A stretch of 18,864 bases of DNA, from positions 1 to 18,864 of the forward strand of contig JANXXA010000167.1 of assembly GCA_025350885.1 (NCBI GenBank), given 5' to 3'. This document shows, one piece after another, positions 2,913 to 18,864 of the stretch (its first letter is position 1; every line of letters starts with the position of its first letter). A program made the translations under genes and the position numbers. The notes under the pieces were generated by a model, which saw only the letters and a list, made by a program, of their open reading frames with translations, ran no database searches and had not been told where the DNA came from. The DNA comes from Phenylobacterium sp. GTDB taxonomy: Bacteria > Pseudomonadota > Alphaproteobacteria > Caulobacterales > Caulobacteraceae.

Positions 2913-5099
2913 TCAAGCCTTCAGCTGGCTGGTATCGATCGGCAGCGAGCGGATGCGCTTTCCGGTCGCCGCGAAGATCGCGTTGGTCAGCGCTGGGATC
3001 ACCGGCGGCAGGGCCGGTTCGCCGAGCCCGGTGGGCGGATAGTCGGTGATCACGAACTTCACTTCCACCGGCGGGGAGTCTTTCATCCGGATCAGCGGAT
3101 AGTCGCCGAAGTTGCCCTGCCGGGTCGCGCCGTTCTCGATGGTGATCTTCTGATAGAGCGCGTGGCTGAGCCCCTCGATCGCCGCGCCCTGGACCTGGTT
3201 GATCGCCCCCAGCGGATTGACGATCTGGCGGCCCACGTCGGCGGCGATCCACACCTTATGGACCTTCACCGCGCCGGCCGCGTCGACGCTGGCCTTCACC
3301 ACCTCGGCGAAATAGCCCATGTGGCTGTAGTGGAAGGCGACGCCCAGGCCCGCGCCCTTGGGCAGCTTGCCGCGATCCTTCCAGCCGCTCATTTTCTCGA
3401 CGGCGGCCAGGACGCCCTTCATGCGCGCGGCGTTGTAAGCGCTCGATTTGTCGCCGACCAAGGGCGTGTCGCCGAGCAGTTTCATGCGGAAGGCCAAGGG
3501 ATCGGCGCCGGCCGCGTGCGCCAGTTCGTCGATGAAGCTCTGGTTGACGAAGGCCAGGGCGTTCGAGCCCGGCGCCCGCAGCGGTCCCATCGGCACGCCG
3601 GCCGGCATGGTCGACTGGTCGGCGCGGAAGTTGGCCAGGAAGCGGCTGGGAAACTCGTTGCCGCCCATCCCCGCGCTGGACGCCACCTGGGCGCCCTCGC
3701 CAAAGGTCACGAAGTGGTCGTGCCAAGCGCTGACATTGCCCGCCGCGTCCACCCCGCCCTTCAGATAGTGGTAGCCGGCGGGCCGATAGAAATCGTGACG
3801 CATGTCGTCTTCGCGGGTCCACAGCAGCTTCACCGGCGCCCCGGTCTCGCGGGCGATCCACGCCGCCTCGACCATGTAGTCGTTGGACAACCGGCGACCG
3901 AAGCCGCCGCCGCAGCGGGTCATGTGCACGGTGATGTCGTCAGGTTTCATCCCCAGCGTCTTGGCCACCAGCTGGCGGCCTGGCTCGGGATTCTGGCTGG
4001 GCGCCCAGATCTCCAGCTTGCCGTCCTTGAAGTGGGCGGTGGTGTTCTGCGGCTCCAAGGGCGTGTGCGCCAGGAACGGATAGGCATAGGCCGCTTCGAC
4101 CACATGGGCCGAGCCCTTCAGCGCGGCGGCCACGTCGCCGTCATTGCGCAGAGTGGTCATGGGTGACCCGGCGGCCAGTTCGGCGGCGCGCCTGTCGAAG
4201 CCGGCCGTGCTCTGCTTGCCCGTCGGATGGTCCGCCCACTGGGTCTTCAGCACATTGCGGCCCTTGCGCGCCGCCCACCAGGTGTCGGCGACCACCGCCA
4301 CGCCCGGCAGCAGGCCGGAAAGGTCGGTCCCGCCATCGACGACGAAGGCTTTGCGCACGCCCTTGACGGCGCGGGCGGCGTCCAGATCGGCGCTGGCCAC
4401 CTTGGCCCCGAACACCGGGGCCTTTTCGAAGGTCGCGTAGAGCATCCCGGGAACCCGCACGTCGATGCCAAACAAGGGCTCGCCCTTGACGATCCTGGCG
4501 ACGTCGTACTGGGCCTTGGGATGGCCGATGATCTTGTAGGCCTTGGGGTCCTTCAGCGGGATGGTCTTCGGGTCGGGTGTCGCCAGGCCCGCGCACTGCC
4601 CGGCCAGGGCGCCATAGCTCGCCTTACGGCCCGTCGCGACGTGGATCACCTGGCCTTCGGCGGTCTTGCAGTCGCCGGAGGCGCAGTTCCAGGCCTGGGC
4701 CGCGGCGTTGACCAGCATGGCGCGCGCCACCGCACCCACACGGCGCAGATCCTCGTAGTTCATCGGCGTGGCCAGCGATCCGCCGGCGAACTGGCGCGAA
4801 TAGAGCTTGGGATCGTTATCCGCCTGCTCGATGCGGACGTTCTCCCAGGCGACGTCCAGCTCCTCGGCGATCATCATCGGCAGCGAGGTCTTCACGCCCT
4901 GACCGATCTCCGGGTTCTTGGCCATGATGGTGACGATGCCGTTGGGCGCCACGCGCACATAGGCGTTCAGCGCCTGGGCGCCGGCCGTCTCGGCGGCTTC
5001 CGCCTTGGCGGCGATACGGAAGGAAAGGACCAGGCCGCCACCGACGACGGAAGCCTTCAGGAGGTCTCGGCGCGAGGCGCCGGTGAGGTGCAGGGTCAT
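2913..5099 (-). CDS. Molybdopterin-binding subunit of an aldehyde oxidase/isoquinoline oxidoreductase-type hydroxylase
   Basis: A 728-residue large subunit of a xanthine dehydrogenase-family molybdenum hydroxylase, of the single-chain IorB type. The N-terminal [20 protein letters not shown] is a twin-arginine signal, so the mature complex is probably exported folded with its cofactor. Visible motifs: GGGFGRR around residues 397-403 (molybdopterin binding) and GLGEPALPP with the catalytic Glu near residue 694. I chose ATG 5099 because it sits 4 nt after the stop codon of the [2Fe-2S] subunit and has AGAAGG upstream; in-frame codons back to 5141 would overlap that gene. The two genes form the usual small-large pair. 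The substrate is unknown. No FAD subunit, cytochrome c or XdhC-type maturation gene lies nearby. Confidence 0.92.
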
Positions 5100-5103
5100 G
5101 GCG

Positions 5104-5565
5104 CTACGCCTTCTGGCCGGAGGCTTGTTTGATCGCCGCACGGATGCGCGTGTAGGTGGCGCAGCGGCAGAGGTTGCCGTTCATCGCCGCGTCGATGTCG
5201 GCGTCGGTGGGCTTGGGCGTCTTGGTCAGGAGCGCGGTGGCCGACATGATCTGGCCCGGCTGGCAGTAACCGCACTGGGCCACGTCCAGCTCCATCCAGG
5301 CGGCCTGTACGCGCTTGCCGATGGGGTCAGCGGCCATGGCGTCGATGGTGGTGATTCTGGCGTCGCCGACGCGCGACACCGGCAGGGTGCAGCTGCGCCG
5401 CGCCTGTCCATCGACATGTACCGTGCAGGCCCCGCAGGCTCCGACGCCACAGCCGAACTTGGGACCCGTGATCCCCAGCGAGTCACGCAGGACCCACAGC
5501 AACGGGGTGTCCGGATCGACATCCACCTCGCGGACCTTACCGTTGACGTTGAGCTTGAAGGCCAT
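5104..5565 (-). CDS. [2Fe-2S] subunit of the molybdenum hydroxylase
   Basis: A 153-residue protein with a plant-type ferredoxin domain (Cys39, Cys44, Cys47, Cys59) and a second [2Fe-2S]-binding helical domain (Cys98, Cys101, Cys133, Cys135; motifs CGYCQPG and CRCATYTRIR). All eight cluster ligands of the CoxS/IorA family are present and the length is typical. It passes electrons from the molybdenum site of the downstream large subunit to an external acceptor. It has no signal of its own, so export together with the Tat-tagged partner is likely (family knowledge plus inference). ATG at 5565 has AGGGAG 8 nt upstream. The large subunit gene starts 4 nt after its stop codon. Confidence 0.95.
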   Translation of the reverse strand: MAFKLNVNGKVREVDVDPDTPLLWVLRDSLGITGPKFGCGVGACGACTVHVDGQARRSCTLPVSRVGDARITTIDAMAADPIGKRVQAAWMELDVAQCGYCQPGQIMSATALLTKTPKPTDADIDAAMNGNLCRCATYTRIRAAIKQASGQKA

Positions 5566-10486: not shown

Positions 10487-12631
10487 ATGCAGGTCCATGG
10501 CACGGAGTTCATCGCGCTGCATGGGCGGGCAAGTTCGGCGATCCTCGAACTTGCGCCGGGCGAGGCGCCGCTCTGGCGGTACTGGGGTCCGCGGCTTGCC
10601 GATCACGCGCGCCCGCATGGCCCGATCCGTGACGGTCGCGCCCGTCCGTCCTTCTCCCTCGACCACGATCAGCCGCTGACGGCCTTTCCGACTTTCGGCG
10701 TCGGCTGGTTCGGGCAGAGCGCGCTCATCGCCCATCGCGACGGCCGCGATTTCGCCCAGGCGTTCACCGAGACGCAGGTTCACTGGATCGAGCCGGAGCG
10801 GCGGGTCGAACTCACACTCATCGACCCGGTCGCCAGGCTCAGCGTGCGAGTCTGCCTGGCGATGGACCCGGCCAGCGATGTTCTGACGCTGTCATCGCGG
10901 CTGACCAACGACGGGCCGGACGACATCGAGGTGCAGTGGCTCGCGGCCGCGGTCTTGCCCCTGCCGCCGGTGGCGTCCCACGTCGGCTATGTCTCGGGCC
11001 GGCACAATGGCGAGTTCCAGCCTTGCGAGGACCGGCTGGGGCGCGCGCTGTGGCGGCGGGAAAACCGCAGGGGCATCACCTCGCACGACGCATTTCCCGG
11101 CGCGATCGTGCGGGAGGCGGGCGCGACCCAGGACGCGGGTCTGGTCTATGGCGCCCAGCTGGCCTGGTCGGGCAACCACGCCCAGATGATCGAATGGCTG
11201 GACGATGATCGCTTCCAGTGGCAGCTGGGGGAAGGGTTCGCGCCGGGCGAGGTGCGGCTTGCCCCCGGAGCCTCGCTGGTGACGCCGCAGGTTCTGGCGA
11301 CGGTTTCGGGCGCGGGCCGGAACGGCGTGGCGCAGAATTTCCATGCGGCGATCCGCGCGCGCATGGTTTGGCCCGGCGGCGCGATGCGGCCGCGACCGAC
11401 CCACCTCAACACCTGGGAGGGCGTCTATTTCGATCACGATGAAGCGACGATGAAGGCGCTGGCCACGACCGCGGCGGACCTCGGCCTGGAGCGGTTCGTG
11501 CTTGACGACGGATGGTTCCACCGGCGTGACAACGACACGCGGGCGTTGGGCGACTGGCGTCCCGACAGCCGAAAATACCCGCGAGGTCTGGCGCCGCTCG
11601 CGGCTCACGTGACCGCGCTCGGCCTGGAGTTTGGCCTGTGGGTTGAGCCGGAAATGGTCAATCCGGACAGCGACCTCTATCGTGCCCACCCCGACTGGGC
11701 GCTGCGGATCGAGGGTCGCCCGCGACTGACCGCCCGCAATCAGCTGGTGCTTGACGTCGGCCGGCCCGAGGTCGCCGAGTACCTGTTCAGCCAGCTCGCC
11801 GCGCTGCTGGAAAGCCTGCCGATCCGCTATCTGAAGTGGGACCACAACCGCGACCTGACCACCGCCGGCGGCCCCGACGGTCGCGCCCGCTATCGCACCC
11901 AGACACTGGCCTTCTATGCGCTGATCGAGCGGATACGGGCGACCTTCCCTGCGGTGGAGATCGAGAGTTGCGCCGGCGGCGGCGGCCGGATCGACGCCGG
12001 CGTCCTGCGCTACGCCCATCGCGTCTGGACCAGCGACTGCATCGATGCGGTGTCGCGGGTAACGATCCAGCGCGGGTTCCTGCAGTTCCTGCCGCCGGAG
12101 ATCATGGGCGCGCACGTTGGCGCCGCCCCCGCGCACAGCACCGGACGCAGCCAGACTCTGGCGTTCAGGGCCGCCGTCGCGCTTCCCGGCCACTTCGGCG
12201 TGGAACTTGACGCCGGCGCCCTGAGCGCCGCGGACAGGACCGAACTTTCCGTCTGGGTCGCTCTGCAGAAATCCCTGCGCGATCGGCTGCACGCCGGCCA
12301 GGTCTGGCTTGGCGATGCCGGCGACAACCTCCTGTGGCAGGCGCACGGGCAGGCGGCGGATCTGATCCTGCTGGTCCACAGGATGGCGCCGAGCACCCTT
12401 CGCCACACGCCGTCCGTGCGGTTGCCGATGCTCGATGCAACGCGGCGCTATCGCATCCGACGTATCGACCCACCGGGTCCAGGATCTGGGGCGTCGGCCG
12501 CAACAGCCAATTTCGCGGCCCTGAAGGGCGACGGCCTGGTTGTCGACGGCGCCTGGCTCTGCGCCTCCGGCCTGACCGTCCCCCCGTCGAAAGCAGAATC
12601 CTGCGCGATCTTCACCGTCACGGCGCTGTAG
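10487..12631 (+). CDS. Alpha-galactosidase, glycoside hydrolase family 36
   Basis: A 714-residue GH36 enzyme that hydrolyses terminal alpha-galactosides such as melibiose and raffinose. Layout: an N-terminal beta-sandwich (about 1-300), a catalytic barrel starting at THLNTWEGVYFDHDE, and a C-terminal beta domain. The nucleophile is Asp452 in YLKWDHNRD; the acid/base is Asp517 in TSDCID. DDGWF and FGLWVEPEMVNPDSDL are further family motifs. There is no signal peptide, so it is probably cytoplasmic. The RBS before ATG 10487 is weak (GAGCGGG). No sugar transporter or regulator gene lies beside it, which is unusual for a catabolic galactosidase. Its 3' end overlaps selA by 14 nt on the opposite strand. 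Confidence 0.95.
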   Translation: MQVHGTEFIALHGRASSAILELAPGEAPLWRYWGPRLADHARPHGPIRDGRARPSFSLDHDQPLTAFPTFGVGWFGQSALIAHRDGRDFAQAFTETQVHWIEPERRVELTLIDPVARLSVRVCLAMDPASDVLTLSSRLTNDGPDDIEVQWLAAAVLPLPPVASHVGYVSGRHNGEFQPCEDRLGRALWRRENRRGITSHDAFPGAIVREAGATQDAGLVYGAQLAWSGNHAQMIEWLDDDRFQWQLGEGFAPGEVRLAPGASLVTPQVLATVSGAGRNGVAQNFHAAIRARMVWPGGAMRPRPTHLNTWEGVYFDHDEATMKALATTAADLGLERFVLDDGWFHRRDNDTRALGDWRPDSRKYPRGLAPLAAHVTALGLEFGLWVEPEMVNPDSDLYRAHPDWALRIEGRPRLTARNQLVLDVGRPEVAEYLFSQLAALLESLPIRYLKWDHNRDLTTAGGPDGRARYRTQTLAFYALIERIRATFPAVEIESCAGGGGRIDAGVLRYAHRVWTSDCIDAVSRVTIQRGFLQFLPPEIMGAHVGAAPAHSTGRSQTLAFRAAVALPGHFGVELDAGALSAADRTELSVWVALQKSLRDRLHAGQVWLGDAGDNLLWQAHGQAADLILLVHRMAPSTLRHTPSVRLPMLDATRRYRIRRIDPPGPGSGASAATANFAALKGDGLVVDGAWLCASGLTVPPSKAESCAIFTVTAL

Positions 12632-13928
12632 ATTTGCCACCTTCGCCGGCCTGCCGGATGGCCAGGGCCAGGGCCGGCAGCTGCGCGTCGGCGACCGTGC
12701 GCAGGTCGATGAGGACGCGGTCACGCTCGATCCGGCCGAGCACCGGCGGTGTTCCGGTGCGCAGTCGTCGGGCCAGCGCATCGGCGCCGAGGCTCGGACC
12801 AGCCAAGGTCACGGCGCAGCTGGGCAGCGCCTGCATCGGCAGGGCGCCGCCACCGGCGTAGCCCACGGTGTCCTGGACGCCGACCTCCAGCGCCGGAAGA
12901 TCGGCGATCAGCGCCCGCAGCGCCTGCGCCCGCGCCGCCACCACCGCGGCCGACTGGGTCAGCATGCGCAGCACGGGCACCCGCGCGACCGGATCGCCGG
13001 GCGGCCGATAGAGCCTGAGCGTCGCGGCGAGCGCGGCGACGTTCAGCTTATCCAGCCGCAGGGCCCGCGCCAGCGGATGGCGGGAGAGCGCTGCGACCAG
13101 GTCGCGGCGTCCGGCGACAATCCCCGACTGCGGTCCGCCCAGGAGCTTGTCGCCGCTGAACAGCACCAGATCGACGCCGGCGCGCAGGCTCGCCTGAACC
13201 GTCGGCTCATCGGCGATCCCGTAGGGTTTCAGGTCGATCAGCGCCCCGCCGCCCAGGTCCTCGATCAGCAGCAGCCCCTCGGCCCGCGCAAGGCCGGCAA
13301 GCGCATCCAGGCCGGGCGCGCTGGTGAACCCGCTCATGCGGAAATTGCTCGGATGGGTGCGCAGGATCACCCGCGCATCGGGATGATCGCGGACCGCACG
13401 CTCATAGTCGCTGAGGTGGGTGCGGTTGGTGGTCCCGACTTCGACGAGCCGCGCGCCACTCTGGGCCACGATCTCCGGCACCCGGAAACCGCCGCCGATC
13501 TCGATCAGCTCGCCGCGCGAGACGATCACCGGCGTCTCCGCCGCCAGCGCCGCCAGCGCCAGGAGCACGGCGCCGGCGCAGTTGTTGACCGCCAGTCCGG
13601 CTTCCGCCCCCGTGACTTCGGCGATCAGCGCATCGAGATGATCGTGGCGCGAGCCGCGGCGCCCGGTTTCCAGATCAAGCTCCAGGTTGCCATAGCCGGC
13701 CGCCGCCTGCATCGCGCTGACGGCTTCCGGCGCCAGCGGGGCGCGTCCAAGATTGGTGTGGATCACCACCCCGGTGGCGTTGATCACCGAAAACAGGGTC
13801 TCCCGGGCGCCGTGCCCGAGCCGCCGCGCCGCCGCGTCCAGCAGACTAGCGACGGTTGGGACAGCGCGGCTTTCATTGACCAGGCTCGCCCTGGCCTGCG
13901 CCAGCACATCGCGCAGAGCGTCGGCCAC
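12618..13928 (-). CDS. selA: L-seryl-tRNA(Sec) selenium transferase (SelA); 5' end uncertain
   Basis: A PLP enzyme that converts Ser-tRNA(Sec) to Sec-tRNA(Sec) with selenophosphate. From GTG 13928 it has 436 residues. SelA hallmarks: VINATGVVIHTNLGRAPL, VNNCAGAVLLAL, SRGELIEIGGGFRVPEI, EVGTTNRTHLSDY, HPSNFRMSGFT, and FSGDKLLGGPQSGI with the PLP Lys at residue 261. Compared with E. coli SelA (463 residues) the N-terminal tRNA-binding region is missing from this start. The same frame continues upstream with clear SelA homology, but no ATG, GTG or TTG occurs before an in-frame stop at 14066-14064. It is divergent from selB and its 3' end overlaps the galactosidase gene tail to tail. Confidence 0.93.
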   Translation of the reverse strand: MADALRDVLAQARASLVNESRAVPTVASLLDAAARRLGHGARETLFSVINATGVVIHTNLGRAPLAPEAVSAMQAAAGYGNLELDLETGRRGSRHDHLDALIAEVTGAEAGLAVNNCAGAVLLALAALAAETPVIVSRGELIEIGGGFRVPEIVAQSGARLVEVGTTNRTHLSDYERAVRDHPDARVILRTHPSNFRMSGFTSAPGLDALAGLARAEGLLLIEDLGGGALIDLKPYGIADEPTVQASLRAGVDLVLFSGDKLLGGPQSGIVAGRRDLVAALSRHPLARALRLDKLNVAALAATLRLYRPPGDPVARVPVLRMLTQSAAVVAARAQALRALIADLPALEVGVQDTVGYAGGGALPMQALPSCAVTLAGPSLGADALARRLRTGTPPVLGRIERDRVLIDLRTVADAQLPALALAIRQAGEGGKSTAP

Positions 13929-14067: not shown

Positions 14068-14219
14068 TGACCTCGCGCCCGATCATTGCCCCGACACGCA
14101 CGCAACACCAGCCTATGGCGGCGAGAATATCGCCTTGAGTGACGCGCCCGGCGGTTCGCTGTAGGGCCATTGCGATGCGCGCCCGTGCGGACCGGGGATG
14201 CGCGGGGAAGGACGAGCGC
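14068..14219. promoter_or_regulatory. Divergent selA-selB intergenic region
   Basis: 152 bp separate the presumed selA start (ATG 14067) from the selB start. It should contain promoters for both arms. Only a weak palindrome, GGCGA-5-TCGCC at 14120-14134, stands out. No confident promoter elements were found. Confidence 0.3.
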
Positions 14220-16139
14220 GTGACCGCACCCCTGAGCCTGGCGGTGATCGGCCATGTCAACCATGGCAAGTCGGCCCTGGTCCGCGCCCTGACCGGCATC
14301 GAGACCGACCGGCTGAAGGAAGAGATCGCGCGCGGGCTCTCCATCACCCTGGGGTTCGCCTGGCGCGACTATCGCGCGGGCTCGGTCGAGTTCATCGATG
14401 CGCCAGGCCATGAGGATTTCATCCGCGCGATGGTGATGGGCGCCACCGGCGCGCGCGCGGCGATGCTGGTGGTCTCGGCCACCGAGGGGTTCGGCCGCCA
14501 GACCTGGGAGCACCTGCGCATCGCCGGCCTGCTGGGCATCCGCGCGGGGATCGTGGCGGTCACCAAGGCCGACCTGCTGGCGGACGGCGCCGAGGCCGAG
14601 GTCCGAAGGAGGATCGCAGCCGAGCTCATCGACACATGCCTGGCCGGTGAACCCATGGTCTTCTGCTCATCGGTCTCCGGAGCAGGACTGGACGACCTGC
14701 AGGAGCAATTGCGGGCCCTGGTAGAGCGGAGTCCGGCCCCGGAGCGGTTGCCGGGCGCGTACCTGCCGCTGGACCGGGTGTTCAGCGTCGCCGGGGCCGG
14801 GACGATCGTCACCGGCACGCTGCTCGGCGGGCCTCTGGGATTGAGCGAGGCGGCCTTGCTGGAGCCGTCGGGCCGCCGGGTCAGCCTCCGACAGATCCAG
14901 GTCCATGGCCGGACCACCGAGCTTGCCGCACCCGGCGGTCGGGTCGCCGTCGGCCTTCGAGGGGTGTCGGCCGATGAGATCCGGACGGGCGAGGTCCTGT
15001 GCGCGGCGGGCTGCTACGCGGCCAGTCTGCGGGTCGATGTCGAACTGAGCCTGTCGCCGGACTGCGCGCGCCCGCTGAAGTCGACCGACGAGGTGCGGGT
15101 GATGTGGGGCGCCCGGCAGGATGTCGCCAGGCTGCGGCTGCTCGGGGCCGGCGCGATGCTGCCGGGCGAGCGGGGCTTGGCGCAGCTGCGGTTTTCAGCC
15201 CCCGTCATCGCTCATGCTGGCCAGCGCGCGATCCTGCGGCGGCCGTCGCCGGCCGAGACGATCGGTGGCGCCGTGGTGCTCGATCCAACAGCACCGCCGC
15301 TGCGCGGGGCGATGAGCGGCGGTATCAGCGGGCGGCAGAGCCTGCTGGAGGCCACCCTCGCCGGCGACCTGGCCCGGATCGCCCTGCGGTTGGCGCAACG
15401 TGACGGCGGCGCCCTGCGGATCGCCGAGGCCGCCCGGCTTGCGCGCCGCAGCGCCACCGATGTCCGCCAGCATCTGGCCGCGGACTTCGAGGACATCGCC
15501 GCCGACATCATGGCCACGCGGGTCGCCGTCGTCGGCGCGCGACAGGCCTACCTGGAGCGCCTGAGCGAGGCGCACCGTCAGGCGCCGGCGAGGTCGTGGG
15601 CGGCGGCCGGCGGGGTACGCGGCGGCGCGGGCGGGGCGTCCCGCGACCTCGTGGCCCACGTCGAGGCGCGGCTGGCGGTGGCCGGCGAGATACGGCTGGA
15701 GGGCGCGCTGGTGGCGCGGACCGGGCACGATCCGCTGGCGACCCTGTCCCCCGAGGCGCTCGCCCAGCTGCGCCGGATCGAAGGCGCGCTGCGGGACGGG
15801 GGCCTCTCGCCACCGGATGCGAGTGTCGAAGATCAGGATCTGATCCAGCTGTTGATCGAGACCGGACGCGCCGTGTCACTGCGCAATCACGCGCTGCGCC
15901 AGACCCTGGTGTTCCACATCGACGCGCTGGCCGCGGCGCTGACAGCGCTCAGCGCCGCCTTTCCCTCGCCGGCCGAGTTCACCACCGGGCAGGCGAGGGC
16001 CGCGCTGGGGACAAGCCGCAAGTTCATCGTGCCCGCGCTGGAGTTTCTTGACGCCAAAGGCGCCACTGCGCGCCACGGCGACGTTCGCCAGGTAACCGGC
16101 GCGGAAAACCCCTTCGGCGTTTCGCCAAACCCCATCTAG
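14220..16139 (+). CDS. selB: Selenocysteine-specific elongation factor SelB
   Basis: A 639-residue translational GTPase that delivers Sec-tRNA(Sec) to UGA codons marked by a SECIS hairpin. G domain: G1 GHVNHGKS (11-18), RGLSITLGFAW in the switch I region (39-49), G3 DAPGHEDF (60-67), G4 TKAD (115-118) and SSVSGAGLDDL. EF-Tu-like beta domains follow (LDRVFSVAGAGTIVTGTLLGG). C-terminal winged-helix repeats end in EFTTGQARAALGTSRKFIVPALEFLD, the SECIS-binding part. GTG 14220 is preceded by GGGGAAGGA at suitable spacing; an in-frame ATG at 14175 would add 15 residues before the conserved start. The P-loop differs from the usual GHVDHGKT (Asn14, Ser18). The selC gene begins 13 nt after its stop, so both are probably on one transcript. 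Confidence 0.95.
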   Translation: MTAPLSLAVIGHVNHGKSALVRALTGIETDRLKEEIARGLSITLGFAWRDYRAGSVEFIDAPGHEDFIRAMVMGATGARAAMLVVSATEGFGRQTWEHLRIAGLLGIRAGIVAVTKADLLADGAEAEVRRRIAAELIDTCLAGEPMVFCSSVSGAGLDDLQEQLRALVERSPAPERLPGAYLPLDRVFSVAGAGTIVTGTLLGGPLGLSEAALLEPSGRRVSLRQIQVHGRTTELAAPGGRVAVGLRGVSADEIRTGEVLCAAGCYAASLRVDVELSLSPDCARPLKSTDEVRVMWGARQDVARLRLLGAGAMLPGERGLAQLRFSAPVIAHAGQRAILRRPSPAETIGGAVVLDPTAPPLRGAMSGGISGRQSLLEATLAGDLARIALRLAQRDGGALRIAEAARLARRSATDVRQHLAADFEDIAADIMATRVAVVGARQAYLERLSEAHRQAPARSWAAAGGVRGGAGGASRDLVAHVEARLAVAGEIRLEGALVARTGHDPLATLSPEALAQLRRIEGALRDGGLSPPDASVEDQDLIQLLIETGRAVSLRNHALRQTLVFHIDALAAALTALSAAFPSPAEFTTGQARAALGTSRKFIVPALEFLDAKGATARHGDVRQVTGAENPFGVSPNPI

Positions 16140-16152
16140 TGTCGCCGCCGAT

Positions 16153-16247
16153 GGAGGTGACTGGAGTCTGGTGGCTTCCCCGGTCTTCAAAACCGGTGAC
16201 ACGTCCCAAAGGCGTGTGGTGGGTTCGATTCCCATCCACCTCCGCCA
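16153..16247 (+). tRNA. selC: tRNA-Sec (anticodon TCA)
   Basis: A 95-nt selenocysteine tRNA, the same length as E. coli selC, with encoded CCA. Fold: acceptor strands GGAGGTGA (16153-16160) and CCACCTCC (16236-16243), discriminator G16244; 6-bp D stem GGAGTC/GGCTTC with a 4-nt loop TGGT; anticodon stem CCGGT/ACCGG with loop CTTCAAA and anticodon TCA at 16187-16189; long variable arm ACACG/CGTGT; 5-bp T stem GTGGG/CCCAT with loop TTCGATT. The long acceptor, the 6-bp D stem and the long extra arm are specific to tRNA-Sec. The eighth acceptor pair is A-C, a mismatch. It decodes UGA in the selenoprotein gene about 2 kb downstream. Confidence 0.97.
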
Positions 16248-16300: not shown

Positions 16301-17887
16301 ATGACCGCTGCCCCGTCGGGATTTTCTCTGCGCGACCTGACCGGCGCGGCCCGGGCCTTCCCCACGGGTCGTCCCAGCCTGATCTGTTTCGTCAAGGAAG
16401 ACTGCAACACCTGCAATCTTGTCGCCCCGCTTCTGGAGGCGTTTCACCAGGCCTGGGGCGGGGCGGCGGACATCTGGATGCTGGGGCAGTCCGCGGACGG
16501 AAATGCGATCCTCAAGGACCGCCACGGCCTCACCCTGCCGATCCTCGACGACAGCGCGCTGCGGACCTCGCTGGCCTGGGGCTTCGAGATCGTGCCGGCG
16601 GTCTACTGGATCGGCGCCGACGGCCAGCGGCCTGCACCGCTGGAAGGTTTCGTGCGCCAGGAGTGGGAAGACCTCGCCCGGCGTATCGCCGCCGATCTGG
16701 CCGCGCCGGCGCCGGCGGTCGCCTGGTCGGAGCTTCCGGACTGGCGGCCGGGCTGTGGATCGAAACACCTGGACCCGGATATCCACGACCGCCTGCTGGC
16801 CGAGGCGCAAGGCAGTCCCATCCGCGCGCGGCAGATCGAGATCGCCAGCGCCGATGACGTCGACGAATTCATGTTCGACCAGGGCTTCAGCGACGGCCTG
16901 CCGCTGGTCCCCCCGACCCCGGAGCGGGTGTTGCGCATGCTGTCGGGCACCTCCCGCGACGCCCAGGACATCGTCGCCGTGGTCCCCCCGAACATGGCCC
17001 CCGCGACCGTCGAAAAGATCGCCATCAACGCGGTGATGGCCGGTTGCCGGCCGGAGTATCTGCCGGTGGTGATCGCCGCGGTGGAAGCGGTCTGCACCGA
17101 TGAGTTCAACATGCACGGCGTCACCGCGACCACCATGGGCGCCTCGCCGGTGCTGGTGATCAACGGCCCGATCCGCGAGCGCATCGGCATGAACATGAAG
17201 CTGGGCGCGCTGGGGACCGGCAACCGGGCCAACGCCACCATCGGCCGGGCGCTGCGCCTGGTGGTGCGCAATATCGGCGGCGCCCGCCCCGGCGGTGTCG
17301 ATCGATCCACGCTCAGCACACCGATGAAGTTCACCATGTGCTTCGCCGAATGGGAGGAAGGCTCGCCCTGGGACCCGCTGCACGTGGAACGCGGATTCCA
17401 GCGTGAGGACTCGGTGGTGACGGCCTTCGCCATGACCAGCGGCCCGGTGCAGATCGTCGATCAGGAATCCCGCGGACCCGACCAGATCGCCGGCACGCTG
17501 GGCCTGGGGCTCGAGGGCATGTTCCTGTCCAAGATCCACCGCATGCCGGTGGACGCCCTGCTGGTGGTCTGTCCCGAGCACCTCAGGACGCTGACCTCCG
17601 AGGGACCCTACGCCAAGGCCAGACTTCGCGATCGCATCCAGGCGGTCACCACGCGACCCTTGCGCGAGATGGTGGCCAATGCGGTCTCGGGCGCCGGGAT
17701 TCCGGTCGCCTCGGCCGCCAGGATGAGCGAGGCGCAACTGTCCGCGCCAGCGGCGAAGTTCGCCAGCGACAAGCACATTCACATCGTCGTCGCCGGGTCC
17801 GAGGCGGGAAAATTCTCCGCCTGCTTTCATGGGTGGGTCACCGGCCCGGCGGGTTCAGCCGTCGTTTCCAGGAAAATCGAATGCTGA
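16301..17887 (+). CDS. Thioredoxin-like domain fused to a conserved domain of unknown function; UGSC partner
   Basis: A 528-residue cytoplasmic protein without signal or membrane segments. Residues about 8-135 resemble thioredoxin: a beta strand PSLICFVKED, the active site CNTC (Cys35, Cys38) and a cis-proline motif EIVPAVYWI (Pro99). A short linker holds Cys152 (PGCGSKHLDPD). The large second domain (about 178-527) contains FSDGLPLVPPTPERVLRML, PPNMAPATVEKIAINAVMAGCRPEY, FNMHGVTATTMG, VLVINGPIRERIG and GNRANATIGRALRL. I recall this block from conserved proteins found beside UGSC-type proteins; its reaction is unknown. It lies between selC and the selenoprotein gene, 31 nt before the latter. 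ATG 16301 has GAGGA upstream; the open frame extends back across selC but that part is not coding. It ends Cys-TGA-TAG. Confidence 0.8.
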   Translation: MTAAPSGFSLRDLTGAARAFPTGRPSLICFVKEDCNTCNLVAPLLEAFHQAWGGAADIWMLGQSADGNAILKDRHGLTLPILDDSALRTSLAWGFEIVPAVYWIGADGQRPAPLEGFVRQEWEDLARRIAADLAAPAPAVAWSELPDWRPGCGSKHLDPDIHDRLLAEAQGSPIRARQIEIASADDVDEFMFDQGFSDGLPLVPPTPERVLRMLSGTSRDAQDIVAVVPPNMAPATVEKIAINAVMAGCRPEYLPVVIAAVEAVCTDEFNMHGVTATTMGASPVLVINGPIRERIGMNMKLGALGTGNRANATIGRALRLVVRNIGGARPGGVDRSTLSTPMKFTMCFAEWEEGSPWDPLHVERGFQREDSVVTAFAMTSGPVQIVDQESRGPDQIAGTLGLGLEGMFLSKIHRMPVDALLVVCPEHLRTLTSEGPYAKARLRDRIQAVTTRPLREMVANAVSGAGIPVASAARMSEAQLSAPAAKFASDKHIHIVVAGSEAGKFSACFHGWVTGPAGSAVVSRKIEC

Positions 17888-17918: not shown

Positions 17919-18437
17919 ATGACGACAATTCTGGATCCCACCGACGAACGCGTTCCCGTCGCCCGACAGGTTACCGCGCGGACCGGGGACATCACCGGCG
18001 TGATCGGCCTGCTCGACATCAGCAAGCCGCGCGGCAACGTCCTGCTGGACGAGCTGGAACGACTGCTGGCGGGCCGCTACCCGGGCGTCGCGATCAGGCG
18101 TTACGCCAAGCCGACCTTCGCCAAGCCCTGCCCGCCGGACCTGCGGCTGAAGATCCGCTCGGAGTGCAGCGTCCTGGTGGAAGCCCTCGCCGATTGAGGA
18201 TCGTGCACGACGTGCAGTCTGCACGACACTGTATGGTTCGAGATCCAGGGTCTTCCCGCCGTCTCCATCGCGTCCAGCGAATTCGCCGAGGCCGCCCAGG
18301 TTCAGCGCACGGCGCTGGGCATGGACGACGCGCGCTATGTGCTGGTCGATCACCCCATCCAGGACGCCACGGATGACGAGATGCGCGCCAAGGCCCGCGC
18401 GGTTCTGGACTCGGTCGTCGCCGCCCTGACCACTTGA
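17919..18437 (+). CDS. UGSC-family selenoprotein, with in-frame TGA read as selenocysteine
   Basis: A 172-residue selenoprotein: 92 residues, Sec at position 93 (TGA 18195-18197), then 79 residues to the stop at 18435-18437. Around the Sec the reading is VEALAD-U-GSCTTCSLHD, the Sec-Gly-Ser-Cys motif that names the family, with Cys96 and Cys99 close by. Both halves fit one family: LLDISKPRGNVLLDELERLLAGRYPG and the basic stretch YAKPTFAKP before it, and FEIQGLPAVSIASSEFAEAAQ and ALGMDDARYVLVDHPIQDA after it. Frame, composition and conserved blocks continue across the TGA. ATG 17919 has GGAGGA 6 nt upstream. The Sec is probably the redox-active residue, paired with Cys96; substrate unknown. 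The upstream CNTC thioredoxin-like protein is a plausible reductant (inference). Confidence 0.93.
18195..18229 (+). promoter_or_regulatory. Bacterial SECIS element at the UGA of the UGSC selenoprotein
   Basis: Right after TGA (18195-18197), CGTGCA (18211-18216) pairs with TGCACG (18220-18225) around the loop GTC; GTG (18203-18205) can add an outer stem with CAC (18227-18229). The loop begins with G and lies 19 nt after the UGA, and the upper stem is 6 bp. All three agree with the published bacterial SECIS rules as I remember them. The core TGCA-GTC-TGCA closely resembles TGCA-GGTC-TGCA of E. coli fdhF at nearly the same distance. An alternative fold pairs TCGTGCA (18201-18207) with TGCACGA (18220-18226). 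SelB's C-terminal domain should bind it. Confidence 0.88.
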
Positions 18438-18560: not shown

Positions 18561-18864
18561 ATGAAAAAGCTAATGGGAGCCCTGCTTGCGGCGGCCGCGA
18601 TCGGCGCCGTCGCCAGCCCGGCCTTCGCTCACCCCGACGACGAGGACAACAACACCGCCGGCTACAGCCAGTATTATGGCGGCTATCAGACCTTCGACGC
18701 CCTCTATCAACATGAGGTGCAAGGCATCCAGCACAGTGTCGGCGACGGCGCCTACAGCCGCCGCGAGGCTCGCTACTTCCTCTCCGAGTTGCGGGGTATT
18801 CGCCAGCGCGAGAACTACTACCGCTCGCAGGATGGCTATCTCAGCCCGCGGGAGGGCCAGGACA
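18561..18864 (+). CDS. Small exported protein of unknown function (3' end outside window)
   Basis: The first 101 residues of a secreted protein. The N-terminus MKKLMGALLAAAAIGAVASPAFA is a textbook Sec signal with cleavage after AFA (residue 23). The mature part starts HPDDEDNNTAGYSQYYGG, rich in Tyr, Gln and acidic residues, and continues as a charged helical stretch (YSRREARYFLSELRGIRQRENYY) that ends DGYLSPREGQD. The latter is mildly reminiscent of an EF-hand-like Asp-rich turn, but that is not enough for a call. ATG 18561 has AAGGA 7 nt upstream. The 123-bp gap to the selenoprotein gene and the signal peptide suggest it is an independent gene rather than part of the Sec island. I do not recognise the family. 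Confidence 0.8.
   Translation, partial: MKKLMGALLAAAAIGAVASPAFAHPDDEDNNTAGYSQYYGGYQTFDALYQHEVQGIQHSVGDGAYSRREARYFLSELRGIRQRENYYRSQDGYLSPREGQD

Follow-up and report, generated by a model that had tools for sequence, protein, structure and literature searches.

A UGSC-family selenoprotein gene of Phenylobacterium with a constant companion gene, and its possible likeness to the selenocysteine subunits of glycine and D-proline reductases

The window analysed here, an 18,864-nucleotide stretch of contig JANXXA010000167.1 from Phenylobacterium sp. (assembly GCA_025350885.1), carries a gene of the UGSC family in which a TGA codon is predicted to be read as selenocysteine (Sec). It stands in a cassette with genes for SelA, SelB and tRNA-Sec and with a partner gene of two parts (Table 1). 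The genome amounts to 3.09 Mb in 598 contigs and is 73% complete. The nearest named relatives of the window (best identity 91%) are Alphaproteobacteria, Phenylobacterium among them, known from metagenome assemblies.

Table 1. Features of the UGSC cassette, in window coordinates
Feature	Position	Strand	Basis or remark
SelA, L-seryl-tRNA(Sec) selenium transferase	12618..13928	-	TIGR00474, 506 bits
SelB, Sec-specific elongation factor	14139..16139	+	TIGR00475, 259.6 bits (cut-off 242); winged-helix PF09107
tRNA-Sec (selC)	16153..16243	+	Rfam RF01852, 78.6 bits; ARAGORN 16153-16247
Partner gene, 528 aa: thioredoxin-like N-terminal part (CxTC) and unmodelled C-terminal domain	16301..17887	+	
Partner C-domain ('DGLPxVPPT' domain), putative obligate UGSC companion	16847..17845	+	Adjacency, fusions, co-occurrence
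UGSC-family selenoprotein gene, 172 aa, TGA predicted to be read through at codon 93	17919..18437	+	Final stop TGA 18435-18437
TGA predicted to be decoded as Sec, residue 93	18195..18197	+	Family comparison: TGA in relatives, TGC/TGT in Cys forms
Apical stem-loop of the putative bacterial SECIS element	18211..18225	+	Core 18211-18215/18221-18225, loop AGUCU 18216-18220, conserved GU; covariation

From its ATG, the UGSC frame runs to the internal TGA and then continues for 79 codons to the final stop, reading U93-G-S-C across the recoded site; the full-length protein would have a mass of about 18 kDa. The read-through protein matches PF24696 with 167.2 bits (cut-off 25, 5e-49) and NF041046 over its full length with 165.9 bits (cut-off 125). 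Cut down to its first 92 residues, the protein scores 53.2 bits against NF041046, below the cut-off. The start codon is backed by the family alignment; the longest ATG, GTG or TTG frame stopping at the internal TGA begins at 17829 and encodes 122 residues. The first-pass annotation had proposed a UGSC selenoprotein hidden by an in-frame UGA, and the whole-protein scores, above both family cut-offs, agree with it. It was also right that ordinary gene calling ends at 18197, with 240 bp of coding sequence left unannotated, and that family-like sequence extends for 79 codons past the TGA. These downstream codons are under purifying selection in all nine comparisons made, to a degree comparable to that of the upstream codons.

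The internal TGA is a property of the family. Among 385 genomes of the class, a drawn sample from this single class, 92 of 97 UGSC matches contain a single in-frame TGA; the remaining five comprise four long matches and a partial one. TGA occupies the site in all 109 loci with the downstream motif G-S-C-x-x-C, corresponding to 108 places, as one locus repeats the window. In the genus of the window, UGSC is found in 25 of 100 genomes, 23 of them with TGA at the site, including one partial match, and two solely with a stop-free form. Nine loci have a Cys form, in which TGC or TGT replaces the TGA and a further 73-79 residues follow. In an alignment of 65 UGSC domains, retained from 151 by a similarity filter, position 93 is Sec or Cys in every row and Cys96 is present in 64. 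Homologues that end at residue 92 had been named as grounds for refutation; no full relative of that kind was seen, and the Cys forms continue past the site; one of the 97 class matches (G313:C311) spans model positions 2-77 only and was not followed further.

A selenocysteine insertion sequence (SECIS) element is suggested by the hairpin that follows the TGA. On its own, the window hairpin is modestly more stable than shuffled sequences (z -1.7 to -2.2), so that the case for a SECIS rests on comparison. The five core pairs form in 99.8% of cells across a set of 109 distinct related sequences, and 14 cells are compensatory; neither value was reached by any of 2000 shuffles. These counts refer to related sequences and not to independent events, and they leave aside seven of 116 distinct SECIS stretches, six with a shifted register and one (L135) with no clear counterpart. 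When the stem is extended to eight pairs, 88% of cells pair, versus at most 51% when the 3' side is slid by 1-3 bases. As slid stems also yield many compensatory cells (up to 12, versus 16 observed) and even up to 10 extra pair types (versus 7 observed), the pairing itself is a better argument for the SECIS than the count of changes. In eight sequences, the innermost C-G pair is swapped to G-C, which turns Cys into Trp and Leu into Phe; in this swap the RNA is preserved at the expense of the protein. The loop codon is similarly constrained: it is AGT in 103 of 103 cases of Ser and TGT in 5 of 5 cases of Cys, compared to 3.7% AGT among the Ser codons and 23% TGT among the Cys codons of the partner gene (106 stretches). 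Pairing, compensatory changes and codon constraint thus bear out the SECIS-like hairpin of the earlier annotation. In all nine Cys forms the loop GU is missing. The expectation that Cys forms lose the hairpin was only partly borne out: L198 and L200 are still able to form the complete core stem, and L134 four of its five pairs.

The machinery for Sec incorporation accompanies the gene. The family match of SelA extends to 14006, so that its start may lie further upstream than given in Table 1. The description of the locus as self-contained holds for selA, selB and tRNA-Sec and is slightly too strong for selD, which is found on a different contig (G000:C222:352-1290, 410 bits); its presence in the genome settles the check for selD absence in favour of the selenoprotein. 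In the genus, selD scores above the cut-off in 21 of the 23 genomes with the TGA form (the exceptions are G711 and G772) and in neither of the two stop-free genomes. The composition of the cassette was assessed in the 80 loci that match the window protein best, out of 440 confirmed, which makes the counts lean to close relatives. More than 5.5 kb of upstream sequence is available for 62 of these loci; the partner is found in all 62, selB in 60 and selA in 59, and tRNA-Sec was found in 59 of the 60 related loci scanned. In the class, selA is above the cut-off in 56 of the 385 genomes and UGSC is present in 38, with both in 35. Of the three UGSC genomes without selA, one is 77% complete and two have stop-free UGSC. 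A search for formate dehydrogenase as a Sec client found seven PF00384 places in five genomes of the genus, none with a TGA; other selenoprotein families were not searched. In 13 related loci, UGSC is followed on the same strand by a gene of an NADH-dehydrogenase-SelD cluster, and the one such gene that was scanned has Pyr_redox_2 and AIRS domains.

Judged by sequence comparison, the gene is a genuine UGSC selenoprotein gene, with its TGA decoded as Sec. The opposite view would make the TGA a genuine stop codon, or an error of sequencing, and would assign the region beyond it to a decaying gene; it has in its favour that an ordinary gene caller terminates there. It is contradicted by the recurrence of the TGA throughout the family and in the motif loci, by purifying selection past the TGA, by covariation in the SECIS and by the tRNA-Sec of related loci, and we assign it a negligible probability. 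Chance and sequencing error are excluded, since the TGA recurs in each of the motif loci and in nearly all UGSC-bearing genomes of the genus.

The partner gene, which the earlier annotation did not single out, is the most informative part of the locus. None of the Pfam or NCBIfam models matches it. Its C-domain lies within 1.5 kb and on the same strand for 134 of 140 distinct UGSC genes, upstream of 114 and downstream of 20. Three of the remaining six are located at contig ends, and the other three have a partner elsewhere in the genome. In ten open reading frames UGSC and the partner are fused, and nine of these carry the Sec TGA. UGSC and the partner occur in the identical 38 of the 385 class genomes, with none discordant (at most five partner candidates were scored per genome), and the partner also adjoins UGSC in all nine Cys-form loci. 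To judge from this genomic association, the partner is an obligate companion that forms a constant two-protein unit with UGSC. The partner alignment comprises 36 of 40 picked rows, with the partial rows L096, L008 and L021 left out together with L100, which has in-frame TGAs. The C-domain has Asp, Gly, Arg, Asn and Glu residues that are invariant and a Cys that is nearly so. The first third of the partner is labelled thioredoxin-like on account of the CxTC motif, of source names such as TlpA, and of a PF00578 match in one homologue. CxTC is present in all 77 homologous thioredoxin-like stretches that reach the motif.

Some variation of the arrangement was noted. In seven loci of the UGSCSSW type (L122, L126, L131, L139, L150, L152 and L156), two partner domains that differ from each other stand in succession after UGSC, and in four of these loci (L131, L150, L152 and L156) a gene of a flavin/nicotinamide adenine dinucleotide (FAD/NAD) disulphide-reductase cluster is present as well. 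Two UGSC genes without an adjacent partner (L129 and L148) share a similar downstream neighbour, recognised by eye from 'VIxGxTxxRLWSxP'.

The AlphaFold2 model of UGSC (predicted local distance difference test score, pLDDT, 95.9) has the order beta-alpha-beta-alpha-beta-Sec-alpha-beta-alpha-beta-alpha, so that the third strand ends at Sec. Among PDB structures, Foldseek ranks azoreductases, flavodoxins and lumazine synthases highest, with modest template modelling (TM) scores of about 0.4-0.5, and VIA-align returned numerous tied Rossmann-like rows. The predicted fold looks flavodoxin-like and does not resemble the thioredoxin fold that was suggested for the family in 2008 (according to a passage of PMC2398784), although the lack of a thioredoxin-fold row among the matches proves nothing by itself. 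At the sequence level, UGSC has no relative in the PDB (the best profile match, with E 0.044, is to unrelated chains), and the PDB sequence search identified no relative of the partner or of the PrdB-like protein of locus L115. In a fold search with a model of a UGSC-partner fusion, all matches came from the UGSC half.

Weak evidence from profiles points to a remote likeness between UGSC and the Sec-containing subunits of glycine and D-proline reductases. In hhalign, the UGSC profile aligns with that of 37 PrdB-like proteins (from 4 loci and 33 of 120 listed proteins) so that Sec falls on Sec, with a score of 36.9 and a probability of 58%. The best of 60 column-shuffled controls scored 20.3, and the reversed profile 13.2. 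At E <= 1e-3, the NCBIfam models of GrdF, GrdB and PrdB match 3, 3 and 1 of the 65 UGSC members. One of these members, that of locus L140, is an unfused Sec form and aligns with the C-terminal part (positions 332-408) of the glycine reductase GrdB model at 20.7 bits, and several partner-fused members match the GrdF, GrdB or PrdB models weakly (E <= 1). In GrdB, GrdF, GrdH and PrdB (PF07355, TIGR01917, TIGR04483), the remote profile alignment would place Sec-x-x-Cys at the equivalent site. UGSC is shorter than the 431-position GrdB and 238-position PrdB models. Reductases of the GrdB/PrdB type draw on a thiol-reducing system and have a separate partner subunit, traits in which UGSC would resemble them. 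Their partner is the pyruvoyl protein GrdE or PrdA; UGSC belongs to a cassette whose partner has a thioredoxin-like part, with no recognisable GrdE or PrdA. UGSC may work like GrdB and PrdB, to go by these profiles; membership of their family is not claimed. At four loci (L113-L116), in three genomes that hold UGSC as well, an in-frame TGA interrupts a stand-alone PrdB-like gene (PF07355). A weak PF09338 match in one of the 65 UGSC members (E 0.068) was taken as chance.

Genomes may hold up to eight UGSC copies (G187 and others), and the motif varies among copies, for example as UGSCSSWSFHD or UGSCTPAV. Copy number and motif variants together suggest substrate diversification. The neighbours of the paralogues were sampled in a small and mixed tally of 66 scanned proteins, out of 93 homologue-supported genes from a total of 258. 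ABC transporters and FAD/NAD disulphide reductases were each found six times, and CoA-transferases, enoyl-CoA hydratases and luciferase-like monooxygenases three times each. Genes of the FAD/NAD disulphide-reductase type lie near six paralogous loci, of which L150 was scanned. As far as gene content can tell, these neighbourhoods fit a catabolic reductase and indicate no substrate.

We consider it fairly probable, as a joint reading, that UGSC is a genuine Sec protein and that it forms with its partner a two-component, thioredoxin-coupled Sec reductase with chemistry like that of GrdB and PrdB. SelA, SelB and tRNA-Sec, encoded alongside, and the SelD of the genome would make UGSC a selenoprotein. 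UGSC would be the catalytic subunit of the reductase. Sec93, at the end of a beta-strand, would act as the nucleophile that attacks the substrate, which the partner C-domain would bind or activate together with UGSC. Cys96 of the UxxC motif would serve as the resolving thiol and form a selenenylsulfide, and the N-terminal thioredoxin-like CxTC domain of the partner would re-reduce it, comparable to the role of thioredoxin for glycine reductase. The chemistry would be nearest to that of the Sec-bearing B subunits of the glycine/sarcosine/betaine and D-proline reductases (GrdB, GrdF, GrdH and PrdB). The glycine reductase equation, in the passage of PMC10298544 that gives it, has thioredoxin dithiol as the reductant.

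Several observations weigh against such a reductase. The probability of the hhalign alignment is modest, and the scores seen for UGSC members against the NCBIfam models, 11-21 bits, are far below the curated cut-offs. PF07355 matches none of the 65 members at E <= 0.1. The window protein itself matches no GrdB/PrdB model at E <= 1, with none for PF07355 at E <= 10, and ten further UGSC members gave no GrdB/PrdB-type match at E <= 0.01. A GrdE/PrdA-like pyruvoyl subunit (PF09338) was not recognised in the partner; a genome search with PF09338 found no matches in 349 genomes of the phylum but, as the controls were silent too, carries no weight. Pfam provides no match for the thioredoxin-like part of the window's own partner, and this part went undetected in 20 of the 29 loci L004-L032, which have short flanks. 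Finally, the passages of the UGSC literature that were searched contain no experiment.

Two other functions have to be considered. UGSC and its partner could be a redox, metal-handling or detoxification pair instead of a C-X bond reductase, with Sec binding or transferring an atom and the GrdB likeness reflecting a shared ancient fold only. The families near the paralogues look catabolic rather than metal-handling, in a tally that is small and mixed, and we regard such a pair as unlikely. Still less likely, in our estimate, is the suggestion of the 2008 describers, a thioredoxin-like thiol or peroxide oxidoreductase, for which the partner would be a dedicated substrate or reductant. The resemblance of UxxC to CxxC and the CxTC thioredoxin-like domain fused to the partner in the clade of the window speak for it. 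Thioredoxin-fold selenoproteins share the UxxC motif. Against such a fold speak the predicted order of strands and helices in UGSC, where Sec follows strand three, and the top structural matches, which are flavodoxin- or lumazine-synthase-like at modest TM scores; the profiles, moreover, lean toward GrdB and PrdB. With a partner-assisted reductase still preferred, a more far-reaching version of it can be entertained tentatively, as a possibility that we rather doubt: UGSC and partner might represent a new class of two-component Sec reductases, in which UGSC, as a free-standing protein, is related to the catalytic Sec domain of glycine and D-proline reductases, an unclassified activating subunit replaces GrdE or PrdA, and the clade has its own thioredoxin and Sec-decoding genes.

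Elsewhere in the window, a molybdenum hydroxylase pair (2913-5565, minus strand) consists of a large subunit and a 2Fe-2S small subunit, akin to xanthine dehydrogenase and 4-hydroxybenzoyl-CoA reductase models at scores below the cut-offs. After UGSC, at the contig end, a small protein starts on the plus strand (18561-18863); its N-terminus looks by eye like a signal peptide, and it has no Pfam or NCBIfam match. Hits to Rfam mir-598 and COG2908 in the window were far below the gathering scores and were dismissed.

The UGSC family has been in print since 2008 (PMC2398784) and is also mentioned in passages of PMC9312934, PMC7539508 and PMC13188914. The window protein agrees throughout with the family as modelled by NF041046 and PF24696, in the UGSC motif, in Sec and in the length of about 170 residues. 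It is a further member of a known family; what is added here is the constancy of the partner and a possible link to GrdB. Literature searches for the family showed neither a functional study nor a constant partner nor a link to GrdB, consistent with the earlier statement that the function of the family is undescribed. The family accounts, in the parts consulted, mention neither a fixed partner nor a cassette with sel genes, with the exception of one fusion, of UGSC to an 'Unknown_1' domain (Figure S1A of PMC2398784). To go by the text passages of that paper, 'Unknown_1' is probably the partner C-domain.

The locus illustrates how gene callers drop the C-terminal half of such proteins. UGSC, a family of many members, has been unexplained since at least 2008, and the partner, the fusions, the thioredoxin-like domain and the possible GrdB link turn it into a testable two-protein system. 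If the proposed new class of reductases is real, Stickland-type C-X bond reduction would extend to bacteria like Phenylobacterium and Sulfitobacter, where as many as eight paralogues in a genome would serve different substrates.
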